Source: a virus. Taken from it: a stretch of 44,835 nucleotides of DNA. The translations under genes were made by a program, and so were the position numbers. The notes under the pieces were generated by a model. The model did no database searches, was not told the DNA's origin, and was given only the letters and a program-made list of their open reading frames with translations. Of the stretch, positions 13,137 to 35,838 are shown in pieces; position 1 is the stretch's first letter, and each line of letters starts with the position of its first letter. Location: positions 1 through 44,835 of the IMG/VR virus record IMGVR_UViG_3300028610_000676; one strand, 5' to 3'.

Positions 13137-13292
13137 GTGCGCGACTTCATCTTCATCACGATCCTCCTCGGCCTGGCTGGCCTGGTCGTCTTCCACGTCT
13201 CGACCGCGGCCTGGGTCGCGCTCTCGATCGACGCCTCCCTCATGTTCTTCGCCTGGCGAACCTGGAACCCGCGCCGGATCCGCCGGCGCTAG
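13137..13292 (+). CDS. 51-residue two-helix membrane protein on the opposite strand (small gene)
   Basis: This plus-strand frame lies in the only sizeable gap between the minus-strand tail genes. Translation from GTG 13137 gives VRDFIFITILLGLAGLVVFH, a second hydrophobic segment (AAWVALSIDASLMFFAW) and a basic end RTWNPRRIRRR. Third codon positions are almost all G or C and codon style matches the rest of the genome, while the minus strand here has no sensible product. The TAG stop shares CTAG (13289-13292) with the stop of the convergent tail-tip gene. GAGGG touches the GTG without spacing, and TATAGT lies eight bases upstream, so the mRNA could be nearly leaderless. Function unknown; a superinfection or envelope role is possible. 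Confidence 0.6.
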   Translation: MRDFIFITILLGLAGLVVFHVSTAAWVALSIDASLMFFAWRTWNPRRIRRR

Positions 13293-16200
13293 AAGTCCGG
13301 CGAGCTCGGCCTGGTGTAGGGCGCGACCTCCGGCGTGAAGGTCGCCGTGTGGTCGTTGCGGTTCAAGATCCGGAGCTCGTCCAGGTGTCCGTCGAAGTCG
13401 CGGTCGGTCCCGGCCGTGTCGTTCATCCGCCCGACCCAGATCTCGTTCGCCGCGTCATCGAGCGGCTCGTGAATCACGTCGCCGGCGATCGAGTCGCTCG
13501 CGCCGTCGAGTGTCTGGAGGACGCCGTCGATGAAGAAGCGGAGCGTCCCGCCTTCGCGGCTGACCTCGAAGTGGATGAAGGTCCCGATCGCGAGGTCGCC
13601 GATGTTGTTGATGAAGGCCGTCTGGATGGCCGTCCCGTCGATCGACCAGGCGAAGACCAGGTCGTTCTCGACGCCGGCGTCGTCCAGGTAGAAGGCGAAC
13701 TGGCGGTCGTTGCTCGGGCCGTCCCATTGCGACACGAGCGTCATCCCGCCATTCCCGGAGGCGTGAGGCTGGGCGTCGAAGTCCGCCCAGACGTCGATCG
13801 TGAAGTCGTCGCCGCGAAGATTGTGTTGAAGCCTGGAGAGCGTGATCGCGAGGTTGTCGCTCACGCCATCGAGCAACAACGACGAGCTCCCGAAGTGGAA
13901 GTTCGCGGTGTCGATCTGGGCGTTGTTGTCGAACCAGAGCCTCGAGCGGATGAGATCCTCGGACCTCATGACGTTATCGGTCGCGAAGGCGTCGGTGTTC
14001 TCGAAGCCGGAGAGGAAGAGGAACTCGTTCCGATCGGCCAGGGTGAGGACGCGCCGCGGCGGCGTGATCGAGCTCGTCGGGATCGTGTAGGTCGCGCCGT
14101 CGTACTTCGCGACCAGGGAGATCGAGACCTCGTCGATCCAGCCGTTGAGCGCGCGCTGGCGGGTCGTGACGCTCGAGTCGTAGAAGCGGCCGATCGTGAG
14201 CGGGACGTTCGAGAGCTGGTCGTTCCTCATGTCCGGCTGGCCGTCGTAGAAGGTCAAGTTCTGGCCGACGCGGTTCCCCTCGAAGAAGAGCGAGAGCCCG
14301 TTCCCGAGCCTCACGGCCGCGGCGTGATACCAGACGCCCGTGACCAGGACGCCGAGGTCGCTCGATGTGATGACGACCTGGCTCGAGATGTTCCCGACGG
14401 GCGAGTAGACGAAGACCAGGTCGTCGGACGGGTTGAAGTAGAACCACCAGTCGACCGCGTTCCCGCCGCCTGGGCGGTCGTATTTTGCGACGATCGCCAT
14501 CCCGTCGGTCGTCGATGACGGGAGCGCGTTGAAGCGGACGAAGGCTTCCATCGTGAACGGCTTCCGGAGGAGGTCGAACTGGAAGAGCTTCGAGCCGACC
14601 GTCTCCTGGATCCAGGCGCCGTCATTGTTCGCGAGCGTCGCGTTGTCGTTCACGCCGTCGCAACGGAGCGAGGCGGATCCGAACATCGACTGGGCCGTGT
14701 CGATCTCCGAGGTCCCCGTGATGTTCAAGTCGAAGCCGGTGAGGTCGTCGGTCGGATAGTTGACGTCGGTGTCGGCGCCTTCCATGAGGGCGAGGAGCGG
14801 ATAGCCGCCGCGGGCGTCCTCGAAGGCGGCCGTCGCGATCGTGTAGTCGGCCTGGTACAGGCTCTTCGCGGTGACGCGGAGCTCGTCGATGTGACCGTCG
14901 AACAAGTTCGCCGGCGCTCCGGAGTGGTGGATCGAGCCGATGAGGAGGTCCTGGGTCGACGAGAACGGGGTCGCGACGAGGATCAAGCTCGTCCCGATCC
15001 GGACGCCGTCGATGAACGTGTGGAAGGTCCCGTCGGGATCCTTCGAGAGCGCGAAGGCGTAGAACGTGCCGGCGACGGGGACGAAGGTCCCGGTGTGGAC
15101 GTCGATCGTCGTCGGGCCGTTCGAGCCGGTCGTCGAGTAGGCGAACTGGAACTGGTCCGCGGTCCCGTCGTAGAAGACCGCCCAGGAGTTCCGGCTCAAG
15201 CCGTCCATCTGGGAGACGATCCCGACCGAGATCACGGGGTCGGCGGTGAAGCGGATCCGACACTCGACCGTCCATTCGTCGTTCACGTCGAAGCCGTCCG
15301 GGAACGGTGTCCGGACGAACGAGTCGACGCCGTCGAGGAGGAGGCTCGAGCCGCCGAAGACGCTCTCGGCCGTGTCGATCTCCGCGCCGCCGTTGAACTC
15401 GAGGAAGCCGTTCAAGCTCGAGACCTCGTCGGCCACGGTCGCCAGGTCGACGCCGTCGAAGTGAGACTGGCGCGCGGCCGCGTTCGCCAGGACGGAGAAG
15501 GTCCCGGTCGCGATGAAGTCGAAGAAGCCGGGAAGGTGCGAGACGTTGTTCGCGATCGAGCCGCTCGGCGAGTGTCTGGTCTCGATCTCGAGGCGCGCGT
15601 TGAATGAGAAGCCGATCGCGCCGCCGGCGATCATGTCCGCCCGCGGGATCTTGATCTCGTCGGTCGCCGTGATGACGCTCACGTTGAGGAGCTCGAAGAC
15701 CGCGTCGACCCTGGCCGCGCTCGGGTTCTGGTCGATGTCATGGACCCAGACCGAGACGTCCAGGTTCTCCGCGACGATCTCGGAGGGGTTGAGTCCGCCG
15801 CCGCCGATGTCGAGGCCCTGGACGCTCCAGAGGATGTCCTGGGTCCTCCAGAGTCGATGCTGGGGGAGGAGTCGCTGGCCGATGTAGTCGCCGCCCGTTG
15901 TCGGCGAGATGAGCGCGTCGAAGCTCGAGGTCGACGGCCAGAAGCCCTCGGCCTCGAACGAGATCTGGGCCGGGAGGAGCGGCTTGTTCTGGCGGTTCCC
16001 CGTGTTGTCGTCGATCGTGACGACCGGGAGCGCGACCGCGGAGGCCTCGAGGACCTCGTCGTCCGGCGACCTGGGGAGGAACTTCATCTCGACGCCGAGG
16101 CCTTGCGCGTAGGTCTCGAAGCCCATCCCGAGCCCGCCCGTCCAGATGAACCAGATCCGCTCGCCGGCGTTGTGCGACTTCCAGAAGGTGTCCATGACGG

Positions 16201-18157
16201 CGCGGTAGACGTTCTCGAGCCGGATCCCCGCGAGGTCGTCGACGATCTCGTCGAAGAGGATGAACTCCTCGGTCGCCAGGCCTGGGCCGATCACGGCGAC
16301 GCCGGCGAAGTTCCCGATCGAGGGCGAGTAGGCCTGGATGAGCCCGTCGAGCGACTCGGCGCCGATCGGGTCGATCTGGATCGAGAAGCCGGCCTGGCCG
16401 GAGATCGGTCCGCTCTCGTTGTTGCGAAGCGTCCCGACGCTGGCGAAGGACTCACGGACGAAGTCGGTCGAGACGTAGGCGCCCGCCGGCGGGTTGCCGG
16501 TCCGGCGAAGAACTTCGTATTCGATCGCGGCGTTCCCAGGGATCCGCCGGGCGATCGTCGCGACCCTGGGGACGGTGTTCGGCTGTTCGTCGGCCCTCAT
16601 GAGGATGAACGGCGCCTCGAAGGCCGCCTGGTCCGCGGCGAGGAACGGCGAGACGGTCTGGATCGGCGGGACGAAGTCGGAGTCGGGCGTCGGCTCGACG
16701 GTCGCCGGCTCGTTGCCGAAGATGTCCTCGACGACGGAGAGCTCGAGCGATTGCTTGACCGTGTCCCCGAGCGACATCTTCGTCACGCGGACGGGGAGGT
16801 CGGTCGTCTGGGACTGGTTCGACGTGAGCCGGAAGACCTGGCCGGGGCGGAGCTCGTAGGCGGTCCGGTTCACGAGGATCGTCCCCTTCTGGAGCGGGAG
16901 CGAGAGGCCGCGCTTCTCCCTGGCGGCGATGACCTGGGCGACGGCTTTCGTGTGGCAACCAGGGAAGCGGACCTCCTCGGTCTGGGTCCGGCCCTGGATG
17001 ATCCGGTTCCCGGCGGCGGTCTCGACGGCGTGTGTCTCCTTCCAGTCCTTCGAGCGGGACGTGTAGCGGATCCGGATCCGGTTCTTCGTGTTGCTCCAGT
17101 CGCCTTGATCCCATTGCTTGACCTCGATGAGGTTCGCGGCCATGCCGACGTCCGTGACCAGGGGGAGGTCGAGGACGACGTAGTCGGGCCGCGCGAGCGT
17201 GACCTCGATGAGGCCGGTGAGCGGGTTCGGTCCGATGTAGCCGTCGACGTGTTGCTCGACGAGGTCCTGGATCGCGCCGGTCGTTGTCTGTTCGTCCTGG
17301 ACGTTCGTCCAGCCGATCCCCTCGGTGAAGCAAGTCTCCGCGGCGGCCCGGAAGCTCGCGATGTCGACGTCCCCGAGACCGAAGCCGCGGCCCCAGCGCG
17401 TGTTCGTCCAGACGTCCCAGGCGGTGACGATCGGGTTCAAGTCCGGGCCGATGAAGTGGTGATCGTTCGCCAGGCCCAGGGAGTCGCCGAGGCCGGCGTG
17501 GCCGGCGGTCCCCGCCAGGTCGTCGAAGGTCTGGAGCTCGACGCGGATGTAGCGGAGCTGGTTCGCCTCGCCGATGTTCGCGCCGGTCGTCTCCGAGATG
17601 TCCGTGACCATGATGTAGGTCGTCCCGCGATAGGCCGGGAGAGGATCCAGGCGGGCGTCGAGGAAGCCGCTCACGGCCTGGCTCTCGGTCCCGTCGAAGA
17701 GCCGGATCCGGCCGACGAAGCCGCCGCCGTTGTCCAGGCCGCCGAAGAGATCGTCGCGGTCGACGTCGACGACCTCCTGGGGGATCCCGCCCGCGTCGAC
17801 GACATGGTCGAAGACTCGGTCGTCCCCGATCCAGACGCCGGTGATCCCGGCGCTCGGGCCCTTATAAAGCGCGTATTGAAGCGCCAGGAGATACTCGAAG
17901 CCGATGACCTCGTCGCGCTTGAAGATGACGCCGGTCTCGACGGTCCGCTCTACCGCGACGAAGTCGCCGTACCAGATACAGTTCGGAGCCTCGAAGCGGA
18001 CCGTCCCGCCGGTACAGATCGGAACCGGCCGGCCTTCGGTCGCGGTCGGGATGTTGAAGTCGCCGAGCCCGCTCGCCGTCTGGCTGGGGAGGCGCTCGCG
18101 GAAGTAGTCCGTCAAGATGAACGAGACGACCCACATGAGGAGCTGGACCCAGATCAT
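13289..18157 (-). CDS. Tail-tip (central fibre, J-like) protein with three LamG-like lectin domains
   Basis: The 1622-residue protein is the largest in the genome. The N-terminal 600 or so residues follow the pattern of siphovirus tail-tip proteins encoded after a DUF2163 gene: a hydrophobic start (WVQLLMWVVSFIL), DNIP-like tip region, WTNTRWGRGFGLGDVD, and FPGCHTKAVAQVIAAREKRG. The C-terminal part has three concanavalin/LamG-like domains at about residues 926-1100, 1148-1353 and 1410-1601. Each opens with IDTA-x2-x-FG-x-(S/A)SL-x2-DGV and closes with G-(H/W)-(I/L)-DE-(L/V)-x-(I/V). They probably bind host surface glycans. The stop shares CTAG with the plus-strand small gene. The start abuts the upstream stop. 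Confidence 0.85.
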   Translation of the reverse strand: MIWVQLLMWVVSFILTDYFRERLPSQTASGLGDFNIPTATEGRPVPICTGGTVRFEAPNCIWYGDFVAVERTVETGVIFKRDEVIGFEYLLALQYALYKGPSAGITGVWIGDDRVFDHVVDAGGIPQEVVDVDRDDLFGGLDNGGGFVGRIRLFDGTESQAVSGFLDARLDPLPAYRGTTYIMVTDISETTGANIGEANQLRYIRVELQTFDDLAGTAGHAGLGDSLGLANDHHFIGPDLNPIVTAWDVWTNTRWGRGFGLGDVDIASFRAAAETCFTEGIGWTNVQDEQTTTGAIQDLVEQHVDGYIGPNPLTGLIEVTLARPDYVVLDLPLVTDVGMAANLIEVKQWDQGDWSNTKNRIRIRYTSRSKDWKETHAVETAAGNRIIQGRTQTEEVRFPGCHTKAVAQVIAAREKRGLSLPLQKGTILVNRTAYELRPGQVFRLTSNQSQTTDLPVRVTKMSLGDTVKQSLELSVVEDIFGNEPATVEPTPDSDFVPPIQTVSPFLAADQAAFEAPFILMRADEQPNTVPRVATIARRIPGNAAIEYEVLRRTGNPPAGAYVSTDFVRESFASVGTLRNNESGPISGQAGFSIQIDPIGAESLDGLIQAYSPSIGNFAGVAVIGPGLATEEFILFDEIVDDLAGIRLENVYRAVMDTFWKSHNAGERIWFIWTGGLGMGFETYAQGLGVEMKFLPRSPDDEVLEASAVALPVVTIDDNTGNRQNKPLLPAQISFEAEGFWPSTSSFDALISPTTGGDYIGQRLLPQHRLWRTQDILWSVQGLDIGGGGLNPSEIVAENLDVSVWVHDIDQNPSAARVDAVFELLNVSVITATDEIKIPRADMIAGGAIGFSFNARLEIETRHSPSGSIANNVSHLPGFFDFIATGTFSVLANAAARQSHFDGVDLATVADEVSSLNGFLEFNGGAEIDTAESVFGGSSLLLDGVDSFVRTPFPDGFDVNDEWTVECRIRFTADPVISVGIVSQMDGLSRNSWAVFYDGTADQFQFAYSTTGSNGPTTIDVHTGTFVPVAGTFYAFALSKDPDGTFHTFIDGVRIGTSLILVATPFSSTQDLLIGSIHHSGAPANLFDGHIDELRVTAKSLYQADYTIATAAFEDARGGYPLLALMEGADTDVNYPTDDLTGFDLNITGTSEIDTAQSMFGSASLRCDGVNDNATLANNDGAWIQETVGSKLFQFDLLRKPFTMEAFVRFNALPSSTTDGMAIVAKYDRPGGGNAVDWWFYFNPSDDLVFVYSPVGNISSQVVITSSDLGVLVTGVWYHAAAVRLGNGLSLFFEGNRVGQNLTFYDGQPDMRNDQLSNVPLTIGRFYDSSVTTRQRALNGWIDEVSISLVAKYDGATYTIPTSSITPPRRVLTLADRNEFLFLSGFENTDAFATDNVMRSEDLIRSRLWFDNNAQIDTANFHFGSSSLLLDGVSDNLAITLSRLQHNLRGDDFTIDVWADFDAQPHASGNGGMTLVSQWDGPSNDRQFAFYLDDAGVENDLVFAWSIDGTAIQTAFINNIGDLAIGTFIHFEVSREGGTLRFFIDGVLQTLDGASDSIAGDVIHEPLDDAANEIWVGRMNDTAGTDRDFDGHLDELRILNRNDHTATFTPEVAPYTRPSSPDF

Positions 18158-29837: not shown

Positions 29838-30221
29838 CTACTTCGTGAGGTCTTGCTGGAAGATGTACCTCTCCTTCGCGATCGTGAGGATCCTCCCGGC
29901 GGTGTCTGTTTGCTGGATGTCGTAGAAGTAAGCCTCCGGGACCTGGTCCGCGTCGCCTGGCGTCCAGGGGAAGTCGACCTCGCCGCCTGGGCCGTCGACG
30001 ATCGTCCCGGTGATCTGGGCGAGCTCGGCGCCGACGATCGGCGGACCGACTGGATCCGGATCTTGTTCCGTGTTGACCGTCATGACGAAGCCGAAGCCGG
30101 TCACGTCGAGGGGCGTCCCCGCGACGGCTTCCGGATCGGTGACGAAGATCTTGTCGGGCGCGGTGTCGCCTCGTTTGCGAGCGATACAGATCCCCGCGAG
30201 GTCGGTGTCACATGAGGCCAT
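29838..30221 (-). CDS. Small virion protein with RGDT motif (baseplate/fibre-adaptor-like)
   Basis: The 127-residue protein reads ICIARKRGDTAPDKIFVTDPEAV, VTGFGFVMTVNTEQDP, GGEVDFPWTPGDAD, EAYFYDIQQTDTAGRILTIAKERYIFQQDLTK. The pattern of an RGDT turn, 'TGxxFxMTV' and 'YDIQxTD' is shared by small Ig-like proteins near fibre genes (BppU N-terminal-like). It lies directly after the repeat-protein gene, so it may attach that protein to the virion. Confidence 0.68.
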   Translation of the reverse strand: MASCDTDLAGICIARKRGDTAPDKIFVTDPEAVAGTPLDVTGFGFVMTVNTEQDPDPVGPPIVGAELAQITGTIVDGPGGEVDFPWTPGDADQVPEAYFYDIQQTDTAGRILTIAKERYIFQQDLTK

Positions 30222-30233
30222 CGGGTCGTCCTC

Positions 30234-33200
30234 CTATTGGCTCGAGTTCGTCACGCCGGCCTCGATCGTCTGGATCGAGTTGAACGCGCCGTCGATGATC
30301 TGGGTCGCGTTGTCGGTTCCGGTCGCGAGATCTTGCCGCGAATTGTCCAAGAATACTATGAATGATTGGAGCGAGTTCGGGATCCTTCTCGCTCCCTGGT
30401 CGAACATGATCCCGGAGAGCGTGAACGCGAGCTCGGCCAGGCCGGCGAGATCTCCGACTCCGCGGAGAGTTCCGTCCGCCGAGATCGTGAGCGCCGCGGA
30501 TCCCTGGATCGCCGTCATCCCTTGAAGGACGCCGGCGGGCGTGAGTGTCATGTCGATCGAGCCCTGGGCGAGGGCCTTCGCGATCATTGCGCCCTGGGCG
30601 TCGATCGTGATGTCGATCGAGCCGGAGAGCTTGCCCTCGGACACGAGCGTCCCGGTCGGCGTGAATACCAGGGCCGCCGCGCCAGCCAGCGCGCCGAGCC
30701 CGACGATCGTCCCGGTCGGCGTCAAGATGAGCGAGAGAGATCCGGCGAGAGTTCCGCGCGCAACCAGGGCGCCGGCCGCGTCGAGGGTGATCGGGATGAC
30801 GCCGGCAAGCGGACCGACGCCTCGGGCATTGCCGGCGACGTCGAAGACCAGGGCGGCGGATCCCGCGAGGGCTCCGGCTCCGGCCAGGTTGCCGGCGGCC
30901 GTGATCGTGAGGGGGATCGAGCCGGAGATCCCGACCATTCCCGCGAGGATCCCGGTCGGCGTGAGGACTAGGTCGACCGAGCCCAGGAGCTCGCCGACGG
31001 CCTCGAGGATCCCCGCCGGCGTGATCGTGAGGGGGATCGTCCCCGCCAGAGCGCCGTCGCCCGTGAGGTCGCCCGTCGGTGTGAGAACCAGGTCGGAGGA
31101 TCCCAGGAGCGCGCCCAGGGCCTCGAGGTTGCCGGCGAGGGTGAACGACAAGGCCGAGGAGCCCAGGAGCCCGCCGGTCGCCTGGAGAGTTCCCGAGGGT
31201 GTGATGACCAGGCTCGCCGCGCCGGAGATCTGGGCGAGGGCCTCGAGGGTTCCGGTCGCGACCAGGGTGAGCGGGATGACGCCACGAAGGCCTCCCGCCG
31301 CGACGAGGTCGCCCGTCGGGGTGATGACCAGGGCCGCGGATCCGAGGAGCTCGCCCCTCCCCTGGATCGTTCCCGTCGGTGTCAGAAGGAGCGCCACGGC
31401 TCCCGAGAGCTCGCCCAGGCCGGCCACGGTTCCGGCTGGTGTGATCGCAAGGGCCGCCGCTCCGGCCAGTTCCCCGCGCGCCTGGATCGTCCCGTCTGGG
31501 GTGATCGCAAGGGCCGCGGATCCAGCGAGAGCTCCGACGCCCTGGAGGGTTCCGTCCGGCGTGAGGATCATCGCCACGGTCCCCGCCATGCCGGCGACGC
31601 CCTGGAGGTTCGCGCTCGGCGTCAAGATGAGCGCCGCGGATCCAGCCAGAGCTCCGAGCCCGCGGAGTGTCGCCGCTGGCGTGATGACCAGGTCGGCGGA
31701 TCCAGCCAGAGCTCCCCGCGCGACCAGGTCGCCGGCTGGGGTGATGACGAGGTCGATCGTCCCCGCGACTCCGCTCGTCGCGACGAGAATCCCGTCCGCC
31801 GTGAACACGAGCGGGATCGTCCCCGCGAGGTCGCCGATCCCTCGGATCGTGGCGGTCGGTGTGAGAACGAGATCCGCGGATCCGGAGATGGCCGCGTCCG
31901 CTCGGATCGTTGCCGTCGGCGTGATGAGGAGGGCCGCGTTGCCGGCGAGCTCTCCGCGCGCGACCAGGTTCCCGTCCGGCGTGATGAGGATGTCGACCGT
32001 CCCGGCGATGAGGGAGTTCCCTCCGGCGATGACGCCGTCGACCGTGAAGACGAGCGGGATGTTCCCGGCGAGATCTCCGAGGCCGCGGAGGTTGCCCGCT
32101 GGCGTGAGGGCGAGGTCGGCGCTCCCGGAGATCTCCGCGTCCGCGCGGATCGTCCCCGCTGGCGTGAGGGTGAGCGCGATCGACCCCGCGACGCGCCCGG
32201 TCGAGGCGAGCGCGTAGAAGCCGATGATCTCGGCCTGGTTCGTGTTCGGGTCGAAGATGATCTGGGGAAGTTGGTCGACGATCGGCTGGGCCTCGCCCAT
32301 GCTTTGCACGTTCCCGCCGTCGAAGTCCTGGCCCATGAGGATCACGTTGATCGACGAGCTCAAGGAGTCGCGCGGCGTGTTGACGTCCGGCGTGACGATC
32401 GCGTTGATTGAGTGGCCCGTCCCGGCTCCGTCGAACGAGCCGAAGGATCCCCTCATCGCCTGGTTGACGTCGATGTCCTCGCTCACGTCACTCGCCGAGG
32501 CGATCGAGTAGCCCTGGGCGACGAAGCCCAGGTCGGGGAAGGTGTGAGTCGCCGGCGTCGCGCCGGTCGTCTTCGTCATCGTCCCGACGGCGACATCCAG
32601 GCCGCCGAGGTCGAGGATCATGTAGGCGAAGTGGTCCCCGTTCGAGCCGGCCCAGTTGAAGCCGTCCCCGGTGAGCGACGTGATCTGGATCGTCCAGTTC
32701 GCGAAGTCGACGTCGTATTGTCCCATGAAGTCGCCCGAGGCCAGGCCGGAGCCCGTCTCGTCCTCGTCGTTGTCTCCCATGTACTTGAAGAGCGCCCACT
32801 GGTCGATCCCGATCCCGTTGAAGTGGGCGACGCCGTAGGTCTGGAAGGCGAACTGGGAGCTCGCCGGGAATTGTTCGCCGGATGTGAAGCCCAGGAGGAG
32901 GTCGCCGTTCGCCAGGCCGAGCCCGGTGACGGGAGCGGCGTCCGCGCCGACGTCGGCCACGATCGCCGCGCCGGATCCGCCGAAGACCTCGTAGTGGATC
33001 CGGAAGCCAGCCGCGACCGTCGTGAAGACGAGCGTGAAGGTCGTCGCCTGGAAGGTGACGGAGCCCTCGACGAGGATCGTGTCATCGGTCGGATCGACGA
33101 CCAGGATCGCCGCGGTGATGCTCGACTGGCGGAGGTTGTTGCTCGCGCCGTCCTGGGCGTTGTGCATCACGGCCCTATGGTTCGTTCCGTCGCTGAACCC

Positions 33201-34196
33201 GTGGCCGAGCTCGGCGTGTGTCTGGATCGTCTGGTCGGCGGTGTTGTCCGTCCATGAGAGATGAATCCCGAACGGGTCCTCGCCCTTGTCGGTGACGTCG
33301 ACGACGGAGTTCCCCGAGGCGGGCGTGACGACCTCCCCGGACTTGTACCAGATCGACGGAGGCGGCTCGCCGGAGAGGACGGCCGAGGGCGTGAGGACCA
33401 TGTCGGAAGATCCGGCGATCGGGACCGTCACGGCGACGGCTCCGGTCGCCGTGATGACGAGGTCGGACGAGCCCTGGATGTTCGCCAGCGCCTCGAGCGC
33501 GCCGGTCGGTGTGAGCGCGAGCGCGATCGAGCCGGAGAGGTTCCCGTCCTCGGTCGGAGCGAGTTCGATCGCAATGACGGCCGCGCGGTTCTGGCTCGCC
33601 CAGGTTGCCTCGACGTCGACGTTCTGGCCGGTCGCGAAGAGCCCGTCGGCGAGCGAGCCGGTACACGTCGCCGTCCCGGCGTTGATCTGTTCGGTCTGTT
33701 CGGTGAGATCCGCGCCCCAGGTCGCGGTCGTTGCGTTACCGACGCCAGCCAGGGCGACGACGGCCGCGCCATCGCCGGCGACGATGTCGGAGGTCGTGAG
33801 CGGGTTCGGTGTTGCGCCAGTCGTCCCGGCCGAGTTCGTCTCGGGGACGGAGTCGGTCCCGCCGCCCTGGTTGACGTTCTCGTAGCTGGCCGCGTGGATC
33901 GTGAAGTTGACCGCCTCCCCGGTGACGACGATCGTCGTCCCAGCGCCCGCCGCGATCCCCGCCTCGAGGAGGAGGAACAAGACGACCTCCTGGTCGTTGC
34001 CGGCGGCTTCGACGTGTTCGGTGACGAGCTGGGTCATCGCCTGGCCGCCCCAGGTGATGCTCACGGAGTCGGGCGTGATCGCGCCCTCGTGTTCGAGGCC
34101 GACGATGAGGCCGCGGTCCGTCCCCGCGCCGACCGGATAGCTCGGCGAGTCGGCGTTGAAGGAGGCGGCGGTGTCTAAGCGGAGGACGTCGGCCAC
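30234..34196 (-). CDS. Giant repeat virion protein (fibre or decoration) with about 33 twenty-residue repeats
   Basis: The 1320-residue protein has an N-terminal beta domain (residues 1-215: VGAGTDRGLIVGLEHEG, SITWGGQAMTQLV, NDQEVVLFLLLEAG) of a type seen in secreted and phage surface proteins. Three short repeats follow (about 218-276), then a beta-rich globular middle (about 280-665) and 30 near-perfect tandem repeats (about 670-1265). The repeat consensus is AGSA-x-LVITP-x-GTL-x-x-x-G-x-L. The C-terminus QSFIVFLDNSRQDLATG is unlike the repeats. Strict 20-residue periodicity with two hydrophobic strands per unit suggests a beta-solenoid or stacked beta-hairpin shaft. It lies between head-neck and head genes, so it could decorate the neck, head or tail. 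Confidence 0.78.
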   Translation of the reverse strand: MADVLRLDTAASFNADSPSYPVGAGTDRGLIVGLEHEGAITPDSVSITWGGQAMTQLVTEHVEAAGNDQEVVLFLLLEAGIAAGAGTTIVVTGEAVNFTIHAASYENVNQGGGTDSVPETNSAGTTGATPNPLTTSDIVAGDGAAVVALAGVGNATTATWGADLTEQTEQINAGTATCTGSLADGLFATGQNVDVEATWASQNRAAVIAIELAPTEDGNLSGSIALALTPTGALEALANIQGSSDLVITATGAVAVTVPIAGSSDMVLTPSAVLSGEPPPSIWYKSGEVVTPASGNSVVDVTDKGEDPFGIHLSWTDNTADQTIQTHAELGHGFSDGTNHRAVMHNAQDGASNNLRQSSITAAILVVDPTDDTILVEGSVTFQATTFTLVFTTVAAGFRIHYEVFGGSGAAIVADVGADAAPVTGLGLANGDLLLGFTSGEQFPASSQFAFQTYGVAHFNGIGIDQWALFKYMGDNDEDETGSGLASGDFMGQYDVDFANWTIQITSLTGDGFNWAGSNGDHFAYMILDLGGLDVAVGTMTKTTGATPATHTFPDLGFVAQGYSIASASDVSEDIDVNQAMRGSFGSFDGAGTGHSINAIVTPDVNTPRDSLSSSINVILMGQDFDGGNVQSMGEAQPIVDQLPQIIFDPNTNQAEIIGFYALASTGRVAGSIALTLTPAGTIRADAEISGSADLALTPAGNLRGLGDLAGNIPLVFTVDGVIAGGNSLIAGTVDILITPDGNLVARGELAGNAALLITPTATIRADAAISGSADLVLTPTATIRGIGDLAGTIPLVFTADGILVATSGVAGTIDLVITPAGDLVARGALAGSADLVITPAATLRGLGALAGSAALILTPSANLQGVAGMAGTVAMILTPDGTLQGVGALAGSAALAITPDGTIQARGELAGAAALAITPAGTVAGLGELSGAVALLLTPTGTIQGRGELLGSAALVITPTGDLVAAGGLRGVIPLTLVATGTLEALAQISGAASLVITPSGTLQATGGLLGSSALSFTLAGNLEALGALLGSSDLVLTPTGDLTGDGALAGTIPLTITPAGILEAVGELLGSVDLVLTPTGILAGMVGISGSIPLTITAAGNLAGAGALAGSAALVFDVAGNARGVGPLAGVIPITLDAAGALVARGTLAGSLSLILTPTGTIVGLGALAGAAALVFTPTGTLVSEGKLSGSIDITIDAQGAMIAKALAQGSIDMTLTPAGVLQGMTAIQGSAALTISADGTLRGVGDLAGLAELAFTLSGIMFDQGARRIPNSLQSFIVFLDNSRQDLATGTDNATQIIDGAFNSIQTIEAGVTNSSQ
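30403..32190 (-). repeat. Tandem 60-bp repeat array, about 30 copies
   Basis: Thirty consecutive units, nearly all exactly 60 bp, encode a 20-residue motif beginning AG(S/T/N) and containing LTP or ITP. Units diverge in sequence but keep length and frame; one copy is 63 bp and one has a one-codon change. On the plus strand each unit begins near GTGAT or GTGAG, giving visible 60-bp periodicity. Confidence 0.95.
33370..33545 (-). repeat. Short outlying array, three copies of the same 60-bp repeat
   Basis: Three further copies (SGSIALALTPTGALEAL, QGSSDLVITATGAVAV, AGSSDMVLTPSAVLSG) precede the globular middle domain of the same protein, so that domain looks inserted into a once continuous repeat tract. 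Confidence 0.85.
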
Positions 34197-34205
34197 GGTC
34201 GGATC

Positions 34206-34523
34206 CTAGTCCTCGGTCACGACGAACGAGAAGCCGTCGACGGCTTCGCCCTGGGTCCTCTTCGTGAAGCCGGCGCCCAGCGCCGCGACAATCGTGTCCG
34301 CCTGGGCCTCGGTCTTACAGATACAGACGGGCGAGCTCGTGAAGTCCTCGATCCGGCGGAAGCGGCCCTGGGTGATGACCTCGTCGCCGTCGTTCGTGAG
34401 GGAGTTGAGAGCGGTCCGAAAGGCCGCGCGATCGCCGAAGGCGAGCGTCAAGGCCGGGCCGTTGCGGTCGATGTTCTCGCGGAAGACTAGGCGCCCTCCG
34501 CGGAGCTTGATCTGGATCGCCAT
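34206..34523 (-). CDS. Hypothetical 105-residue structural-region protein
   Basis: The start is set at the second of two ATGs (34523, MAIQIKLRGGRLVF), five bases from GGAGG. The protein is soluble and alpha/beta (ALTLAFGDRAAFRTALNSL, SSPVCICKTEAQADTIVAALGAGF). It precedes the giant repeat gene. No family is recognised. Confidence 0.6.
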   Translation of the reverse strand: MAIQIKLRGGRLVFRENIDRNGPALTLAFGDRAAFRTALNSLTNDGDEVITQGRFRRIEDFTSSPVCICKTEAQADTIVAALGAGFTKRTQGEAVDGFSFVVTED

Positions 34524-34577
34524 CATGTCCTCCTTCGGACTTCTGGGCCCGGATGTCGGAGGCCATCACGTCCTCAC

Positions 34578-35394: not shown

Positions 35395-35838
35395 TTAGTC
35401 GAGGGAGACGTCGAGATCTCCGGGAGCAAATTCCGGCGTGATCCCGGTCGAGATCGCGAGCGAGCTCGCGAGGACGCCGACCATGTTGAGGAACCCGGCG
35501 CCGGACGCGGCGAAGCCGAGCCCGAAGTGGGTCACGGTATCCGAGCCCGAGGTCGCCTGGGGGAAGGTGATCGCGGCGTCGTTGTCTACGACTCCCGCGG
35601 CTACCGTCCAGCCGGCCAGGGAACGCGCGACGGCGACCCGAGCGTATGGCGTGTAGGTTGCCTCGTTCGTTGTTTGATCCGAGACGGACTCGGCGGGGAG
35701 GGCCGTCATGAGGGACGTGTGGAAGTTCCCGGCCCCGACTGAGGGGAGGAGACCGCCCGCGTCCCCGACATTCGGGGCGGCGACGTTCGTGAAGATAAGG
35801 TCGAGGAGGTCGTCCTCGAAGAAGTCCTGGGCTGACAT
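35395..35838 (-). CDS. Small phage tail-fibre-associated protein family
   Basis: The 147-residue protein has the recognisable motif series LDLIFTNVAAPNVGDAGGL, GNFHTSLMTALP, SDQTTNEATYTPYARVAVARS, GWTV, AITFPQATSG and a C-terminal ITPEFAPGDLDVSLD. This family is widespread in phages and often annotated as tail fibre protein, although its role is not well defined. It is encoded close to the capsid genes, so a fibre role at the head or neck is equally possible. Confidence 0.75.
   Translation of the reverse strand: MSAQDFFEDDLLDLIFTNVAAPNVGDAGGLLPSVGAGNFHTSLMTALPAESVSDQTTNEATYTPYARVAVARSLAGWTVAAGVVDNDAAITFPQATSGSDTVTHFGLGFAASGAGFLNMVGVLASSLAISTGITPEFAPGDLDVSLD

Follow-up and report, generated by a model that had tools for sequence, protein, structure and literature searches.

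TpsA proteins of two-partner secretion (TPS) are described as helices of right-handed twist in which each coil comprises three short strands (PMC5422565), and for filamentous haemagglutinin (FHA) the title of an earlier study gives a 50-nm monomeric rod built on a 19-residue motif (Makhov 1994, cited in PMC5422565). In the gene transfer agent RcGTA, a repeated hydrophobic peptide of the head spike fibre Rcc01080 docks one chain on a five-subunit base (PMC7296036). For the Ralstonia podophage GP4, the structure paper, as cited in a later source, distinguishes three tail-fibre types (Zheng 2023, cited in PMC11784390). Here we describe a gene for a 1320-residue repeat protein in the IMG/VR virus record IMGVR_UViG_3300028610_000676 (the window, i.e., the whole stretch of 44,835 nucleotides that was analyzed, a 44.8-kb virus record with a siphovirus structural operon), and compare it with related loci and contigs labelled L002, L003 and so on.

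We consider it probable that the product of this gene is a virion fibre with a solenoid shaft and an exchangeable head. The thirty 20-residue units of its main array (Table 1) would wind up as a rod-like parallel beta-solenoid with three sides, each coil being made by one unit. Beta-solenoids rise by about 0.48 nm per coil, which would make the rod about 14 nm long if the chain is monomeric. The two globular domains at the N-terminal end would form the exchangeable head and most likely touch the host surface, and the rod most likely docks to the virion near the head-neck junction through its C-terminal tail with five NSxQ motifs. A gp80-like protein, encoded upstream, and a 127-aa protein, encoded downstream, are the likely base of the rod. 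Rod length would then be set by the number of units, and the bound target by swapping of heads.

The gene lies on the minus strand, which puts the block of three units towards the N-terminus of the protein and that of thirty units towards the C-terminus. Position-specific segmentation of the protein yields 33 units of 20 residues (three plus thirty), where an earlier note on this DNA had counted about 33, and the limits given there for the two blocks (33370-33545 and 30403-32190) are right to within about 15 bases (33360-33539 and 30390-32192). The sole irregularity in the arrays is a 21-residue step at aa 729, with one extra residue. Self-similarity of the protein reaches 1.85, 1.69, 1.69 and 1.79 BLOSUM62 units per residue at lags of 20, 40, 60 and 80, respectively, as against only -0.15 for the best value at any lag in shuffled sequences (n = 200). 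Tools for DNA-level repeats detected just two weak 60-bp arrays. Within the window protein the units are on average 40% identical (55% at the DNA level) and neighbours show no excess (0.41 at lag 1 versus 0.40 for all pairs), whereas the orthologous units of L002, the nearest relative, are 76% identical to the matching window units. This regular spacing is thus of long standing and under constraint, in agreement with the earlier note, and recent slippage can be rejected for the window array, since adjacent units resemble each other no more than distant ones do. In some other members slippage does act and unit gain is ongoing, because some 60-bp units of L005 (8004-8933) are identical in DNA. 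Between the window and L002, the ratios of nonsynonymous to synonymous substitution rates (dN/dS) in the array, the middle domain and the N-terminal domain are 0.41, 0.46 and 0.47, respectively; the fibre gene is thus under purifying selection. Antisense open reading frames across the array (e.g., 558 aa, 30541-32217 on the plus strand) were treated as by-products of GC-rich coding sequence. A weaker super-period of 80 residues, or four units, was found in the window (30390-32192) and in L019 (4456-6810), with none of 2000 permutations reaching it in either; this similarity of units four apart suggests an 80-residue super-repeat.

Neither Pfam, PHROGs and NCBIfam nor the PDB yielded a credible match to the whole protein. 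Searches of named phages (50,697 records) by tblastn gave no match for the repeat proteins of the window, L003 and L005, and for the L018 repeats weak matches alone (E 0.4 or worse). Orthologues are found in L002 (73-75% identical; 74% for the best segment), L003 (52%) and, partially, in L004; in L002 and L003 the gene starts with ATG at the point where the window gene has GTG. Unit length is strongly conserved: in 20 repeat proteins, 428 of the 478 steps measure exactly 20 residues, and the others are one to three residues longer, never shorter. Of 434 pooled units, 100% have Gly or Ala at position 3, and at least 98% a hydrophobic residue at position 9. The same repeat type occurs with different flanking domains in L005 and L009-L014. 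The short array has 3, 3, 4, 3 and at least 2 units in the window, L002, L003, L018 and L024, and the main array 29, 46, at least 22 and 29 units in L002, L003, L018 and L024; L019 has 39 units and L017 at least 40. Even among phages with 83-94% identical capsid protein, shafts range from 19 to 30 units. In the Microcystis phage Mae-JY04 (L028:6448-8325), a gene directly after a gp80-like gene also encodes a period of 20 residues, but in a Gly/Ala/Ser-rich sequence that differs strongly.

The placement of the protein in the virion is suggested by gene context, namely the position between capsid and adaptor genes and the linkage to a gp80-like gene. The window operon encodes terminase, portal, head morphogenesis, scaffold and major capsid proteins, followed by the cassette with the fibre gene and by the adaptor Ad1; after Ad1 come head closure, tail completion, terminator, tail protein, chaperone, tape measure and tail-tip genes. 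The gp80-like protein matches PF23140 over aa 38-145 (57.4 bits against a cutoff of 27, E 2.4e-15), and PDB entry 8jou_a by profile (E 8.5e-5). All 12 loci that extend far enough (11 of them distinct) have a gp80-like gene at 0.5-3.4 kb upstream of the one for the repeat protein. We also approached the linkage from the other side, taking the best 80 of at least 545 gp80-like relatives in IMG/VR; among loci with at least 1.5 kb downstream, some of them near-duplicates, a periodic gene follows in 36 of 69, with a period that is nearly always 20, as compared to 10 periodic frames among 287 upstream. When contigs were picked by capsid protein alone, with at least 5 kb downstream, 10 of 21 carried both genes, 11 neither and none one alone; after merging of near-duplicates the split was 8 versus 7 contigs, for which the chance is about 1/6400, relatedness being otherwise uncorrected. 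The capsid protein of the Nipunavirus PaMx25 is 54% identical to that of the window, and just three genes, with no repeat protein among them, lie between its capsid and Ad1 genes. In the Sphingomonas phage MMDA13 (L021:4221-5003) the same capsid-adaptor position holds a protein annotated with a peptidoglycan endopeptidase domain; the slot seems to accept different cargo.

The same context also bears on where in the virion the fibre sits. A capsid-surface (head) fibre or capsid decoration, instead of a neck or tail fibre, is a serious contender, though we hold it to be somewhat short of probable. It would fit the position of the gene between major capsid and head-tail adaptor genes in the window, L002, L003 and L019, the filing of the gp80-like neighbour under PHROG 240 as 'head protein', and the occurrence of head fibres in RcGTA (PMC7296036) and in phage 7-7-1 (PMC12796354). 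However, location is not fixed by gene order, and contig MW202657 has the gp80-like gene after the neck genes. In addition, gp80 of GP4 is a fibre protein by its Pfam name, and the title of the paper on GP4 speaks of tail fibres (cited in PMC11784390).

For the fibre proposed here, the evidence on orientation comes from the two ends of the protein. BLAST comparisons distinguish at least six types of N-terminal head on one kind of shaft in phages with 83-94% identical capsid protein: the domain pair of the window, a type shared by L115, L117, L127, L041 and L019, and those of L125, L135, L142 and L143 (those of L041 and L142 are cut short by contig ends, and the capsid of L019 is of a different type). 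In these relatives unrelated N-terminal heads are joined directly to the shaft, and such swapping of domains among close relatives suggests that the heads may bind receptors. The N-terminal domain has no Pfam or PDB match and a stand-alone relative in L005 (6040-6765, 27% identity). The middle domain, likewise without a match in profile searches of Pfam and the PDB, is 39-52% identical in L018 and L024-L027, occurs free-standing in L027 (413 aa) and sits on a different 20-residue repeat shaft in L026. L026 (2-4548) holds two genes with this different repeat (of the DSIELIDNHIELRNR type), one of them fused to the middle domain. In L003 the middle domain is 77% identical to that of the window despite a capsid protein of another PHROG and an adaptor that is just 27% identical, and the gene therefore moves between phages. 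The earlier note had suggested a binding domain inserted into a repeat shaft and a copy number that could vary between isolates. A domain does lie between the two repeat blocks and is a mobile module, but it is not the sole head, given the unrelated N-terminal heads of relatives; the N-terminus is the variable end of the protein and the C-terminal tail the conserved one. Copy number does differ among related phages, as the unit counts above indicate.

At the other end, three to five NSxQ-type motifs with a spacing of about 11 residues are present in every complete tail of this clade, and absent from L003 and more distant repeat proteins. The gene for the 127-aa protein starts 10-14 bp after every fibre gene that bears an NSxQ tail, and is absent from the vicinity of 18 repeat genes without one. 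As the tail co-varies with the 127-aa gene while the N-terminus is swapped, we propose that the fibre is probably anchored by its C-terminus, with the N-terminal head pointing outward; both polarity and attachment site are inferred. The conventional arrangement, with the N-terminal domain on the virion and the C-terminal tail or array binding the host, would turn the variable N-termini into adaptations to different docking partners. It is the rule for most known phage fibres, and L003 combines the N-terminal and middle domains of the window with another capsid PHROG and a different tail. We nevertheless regard it as unlikely, since unrelated N-terminal domains occur at 83-94% capsid identity, and all complete genes have kept the C-terminal tail, which tracks the adjacent 127-aa gene.

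The structure of the shaft was predicted with AlphaFold2 (AF2) from the last ten units and the tail (model mba885754064d), a ten-repeat prediction of the kind that the earlier note had called for. The model has three strands per unit, with a predicted local distance difference test (pLDDT) score of 70-81 at its centre and a predicted template modelling (pTM) score of 0.63; in the C-terminal tail pLDDT falls below 50. By this prediction the main array is a beta-solenoid of regular coils with three strands per unit. Of the two folds that the earlier note had offered, a solenoid or stacked hairpins, the first is thus retained and the second replaced by a three-stranded coil; neither hairpins nor a disordered chain find support in the AF2 model. 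Across the pooled units, large hydrophobic residues occupy positions 1, 7, 9 and 15, and small ones positions 3, 13, 17 and 19, a pattern that fits the inward-facing residues of a three-sided coil. The PDB fold match of best probability is the secretion domain of HxuA (4i84), a right-handed beta-helix (probability 0.96, TM score 0.44), and left-handed beta-helices fit poorly (TM 0.13-0.2), so that the model appears right-handed. In a library of viral structures, the uncultured phage protein A0A6J5RH99 matches the model (TM 0.56, 26% identity). That the short beta-repeats of three chains instead join into one shaft, for example as a triple beta-spiral, is a rather doubtful alternative to the single-chain solenoid. 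Short-repeat shafts of viral fibres are often trimers, the unit pattern includes a glycine- and proline-rich turn, and a monomer prediction is blind to trimers; the neck fibre of A-1(L) is made of trimers (PMC10966104). Against this, a triangular coil agrees with the presence of three strands per 20 residues, each with inward residues both large and small, and the related bacterial repeat is, going by the title of the cited study, a monomeric rod (Makhov 1994, cited in PMC5422565).

A relation to that bacterial repeat was also found at the level of profiles. The arrays of L003 (E 3.9e-36), L017 (6.2e-31) and L019 (5.7e-7) match Fil_haemagg (PF05594), for which the Pfam cutoff is 21.5 bits. None of four decoys of the L003 array (one reversed, three column-permuted) matches this family, and for this array the match comes from motif register and not from composition. 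Decoy arrays do match other families, up to E 3.4e-9, and E-values for such repeats are therefore inflated; matches of arrays to FliM and Polyketide_cyc2 were judged compositional, as decoys score similarly. A TPS secretion domain was not found with Pfam, either within the first 219 residues (E up to 10) or in the whole protein (E up to 1). The window array would thus work like a haemagglutinin repeat, but we do not assign it to the family. That the gene encodes a secreted or cell-surface adhesin of the infected or lysogenic host, and not a part of the virion, is recommended by this resemblance to a TPS adhesin repeat but highly improbable, as the gene lies inside the late structural operon and is gained and lost together with a fibre-family gene, and peptide scans for the whole protein and for the middle domain turned up no relative in 84,980 cellular genomes.

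Besides the usual N-terminal anchoring of phage fibres, several results weigh against the proposed C-terminally anchored solenoid fibre. L003 and L017 carry the 127-aa gene without an NSxQ tail. The window array itself stays below the PF05594 cutoff (11.1 bits, E 0.68). Confidence of the AF2 model is moderate and was aided by the alignment of paralogous units, and in a PDB fold search with this model no match reached E 0.001. Prediction of aa 1-749, from four sequences, gave no usable head fold (pLDDT 31).

If the proposed polarity is true, it reverses the usual rule for phage fibres. We put forward, more tentatively, that the protein may stand for a common class of inverted fibres, in which a single-chain solenoid rod carries exchangeable N-terminal heads and a multivalent C-terminal tail whose motifs, up to five, fill the subunits of a symmetric virion ring, and in which the cassette (gp80-like base, small proteins, rod and 127-aa protein) would move as one unit between unrelated phages. 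The repeat proteins are widespread, in dozens of environmental phages here, and that of the window has no functional name in Pfam, PHROGs or NCBIfam; the gp80-like neighbour offers a handle for finding others. Phages with nearly the same capsid that differ by cassette gain or loss, head swaps and unit number form a natural series for relating rod length and head type to host contact.

The features of the locus are collected in Table 1. Elsewhere in the window (13289-18157), another candidate for contact with the host, at the tip of the tail, is a tail protein of 1622 aa that contains Phage-tail_3 and three stretches of Laminin_G_3.

Table 1. Fibre gene, its domains and the neighbouring cassette genes (positions in the window; aa, amino acids).
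Feature	Positions	Strand	Remarks
gp80-like gene, 147 aa, homologue of podophage GP4 fibre I protein gp80	35395..35838	-	PF23140
Cassette gene, 107 aa	35042..35365	-	in L002 (78%), L125 (53%), L115 (61%)
Cassette gene, 154 aa	34578..35042	-	recurs between gp80-like and fibre genes, 24-79% identity (L002, L003, L018, L019, L143, L135, L125, L115)
Cassette gene, 106 aa, directly upstream of fibre gene	34206..34526	-	L002 85%, L003 61%
Repeat fibre protein gene (putative), 1320 aa	30234..34196	-	GTG start; orthologues L002, L003, L004 (partial)
N-terminal domain, aa 1-219, putatively one of several exchangeable heads	33540..34196	-	common to L002, L003
Short array, three 20-residue units, aa 220-279	33360..33539	-	
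Middle globular domain, aa 281-667, mobile module	32196..33356	-	L002/L003 75-77% identical
Main array, thirty 20-residue units, aa 669-1269, predicted beta-solenoid shaft	30390..32192	-	segmentation; AF2; residue pattern
C-terminal tail, five N(S/A)xQ motifs 10-11 residues apart	30237..30389	-	3-5 motifs in relatives
Downstream gene, 127 aa, candidate tail partner	29838..30221	-	PHROG 1084, E 1.3e-7

When compared with described systems, the window protein resembles the PF05594/TpsA beta-helices (FHA, HxuA) in its long array of beta-repeats of about 19-20 residues with three strands per coil, and in the predicted alternation of large and small inward residues. In contrast to FHA, its units measure 20 residues and not 19, and it is encoded in a phage structural operon. 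With the tail fibres of GP4 (gp80, fibre I; PF23140, PDB 8jou) it shares a gp80 homologue in the same cassette, but the 20-residue-repeat protein is without a credible PDB match and the window phage has a siphovirus-type tail module. Like Rcc01080, a flexible surface fibre with a short repeated docking peptide, it carries up to five copies of one motif in its tail; there the N-terminus docks, whereas in the window protein the C-terminus would do so, and the likeness is not a claim of sequence similarity. Like the neck fibres of A-1(L), it would be part of a multi-gene fibre of the neck region with a large distal domain; in A-1(L), however, about 14 copies of a separate bead protein give the length, which in the window protein would come from repeats within the chain (PMC10966104). 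New here are the capsid-neck cassette, the swapping of N-terminal domains together with variation in unit number, and an NSxQ tail that tracks one downstream gene.

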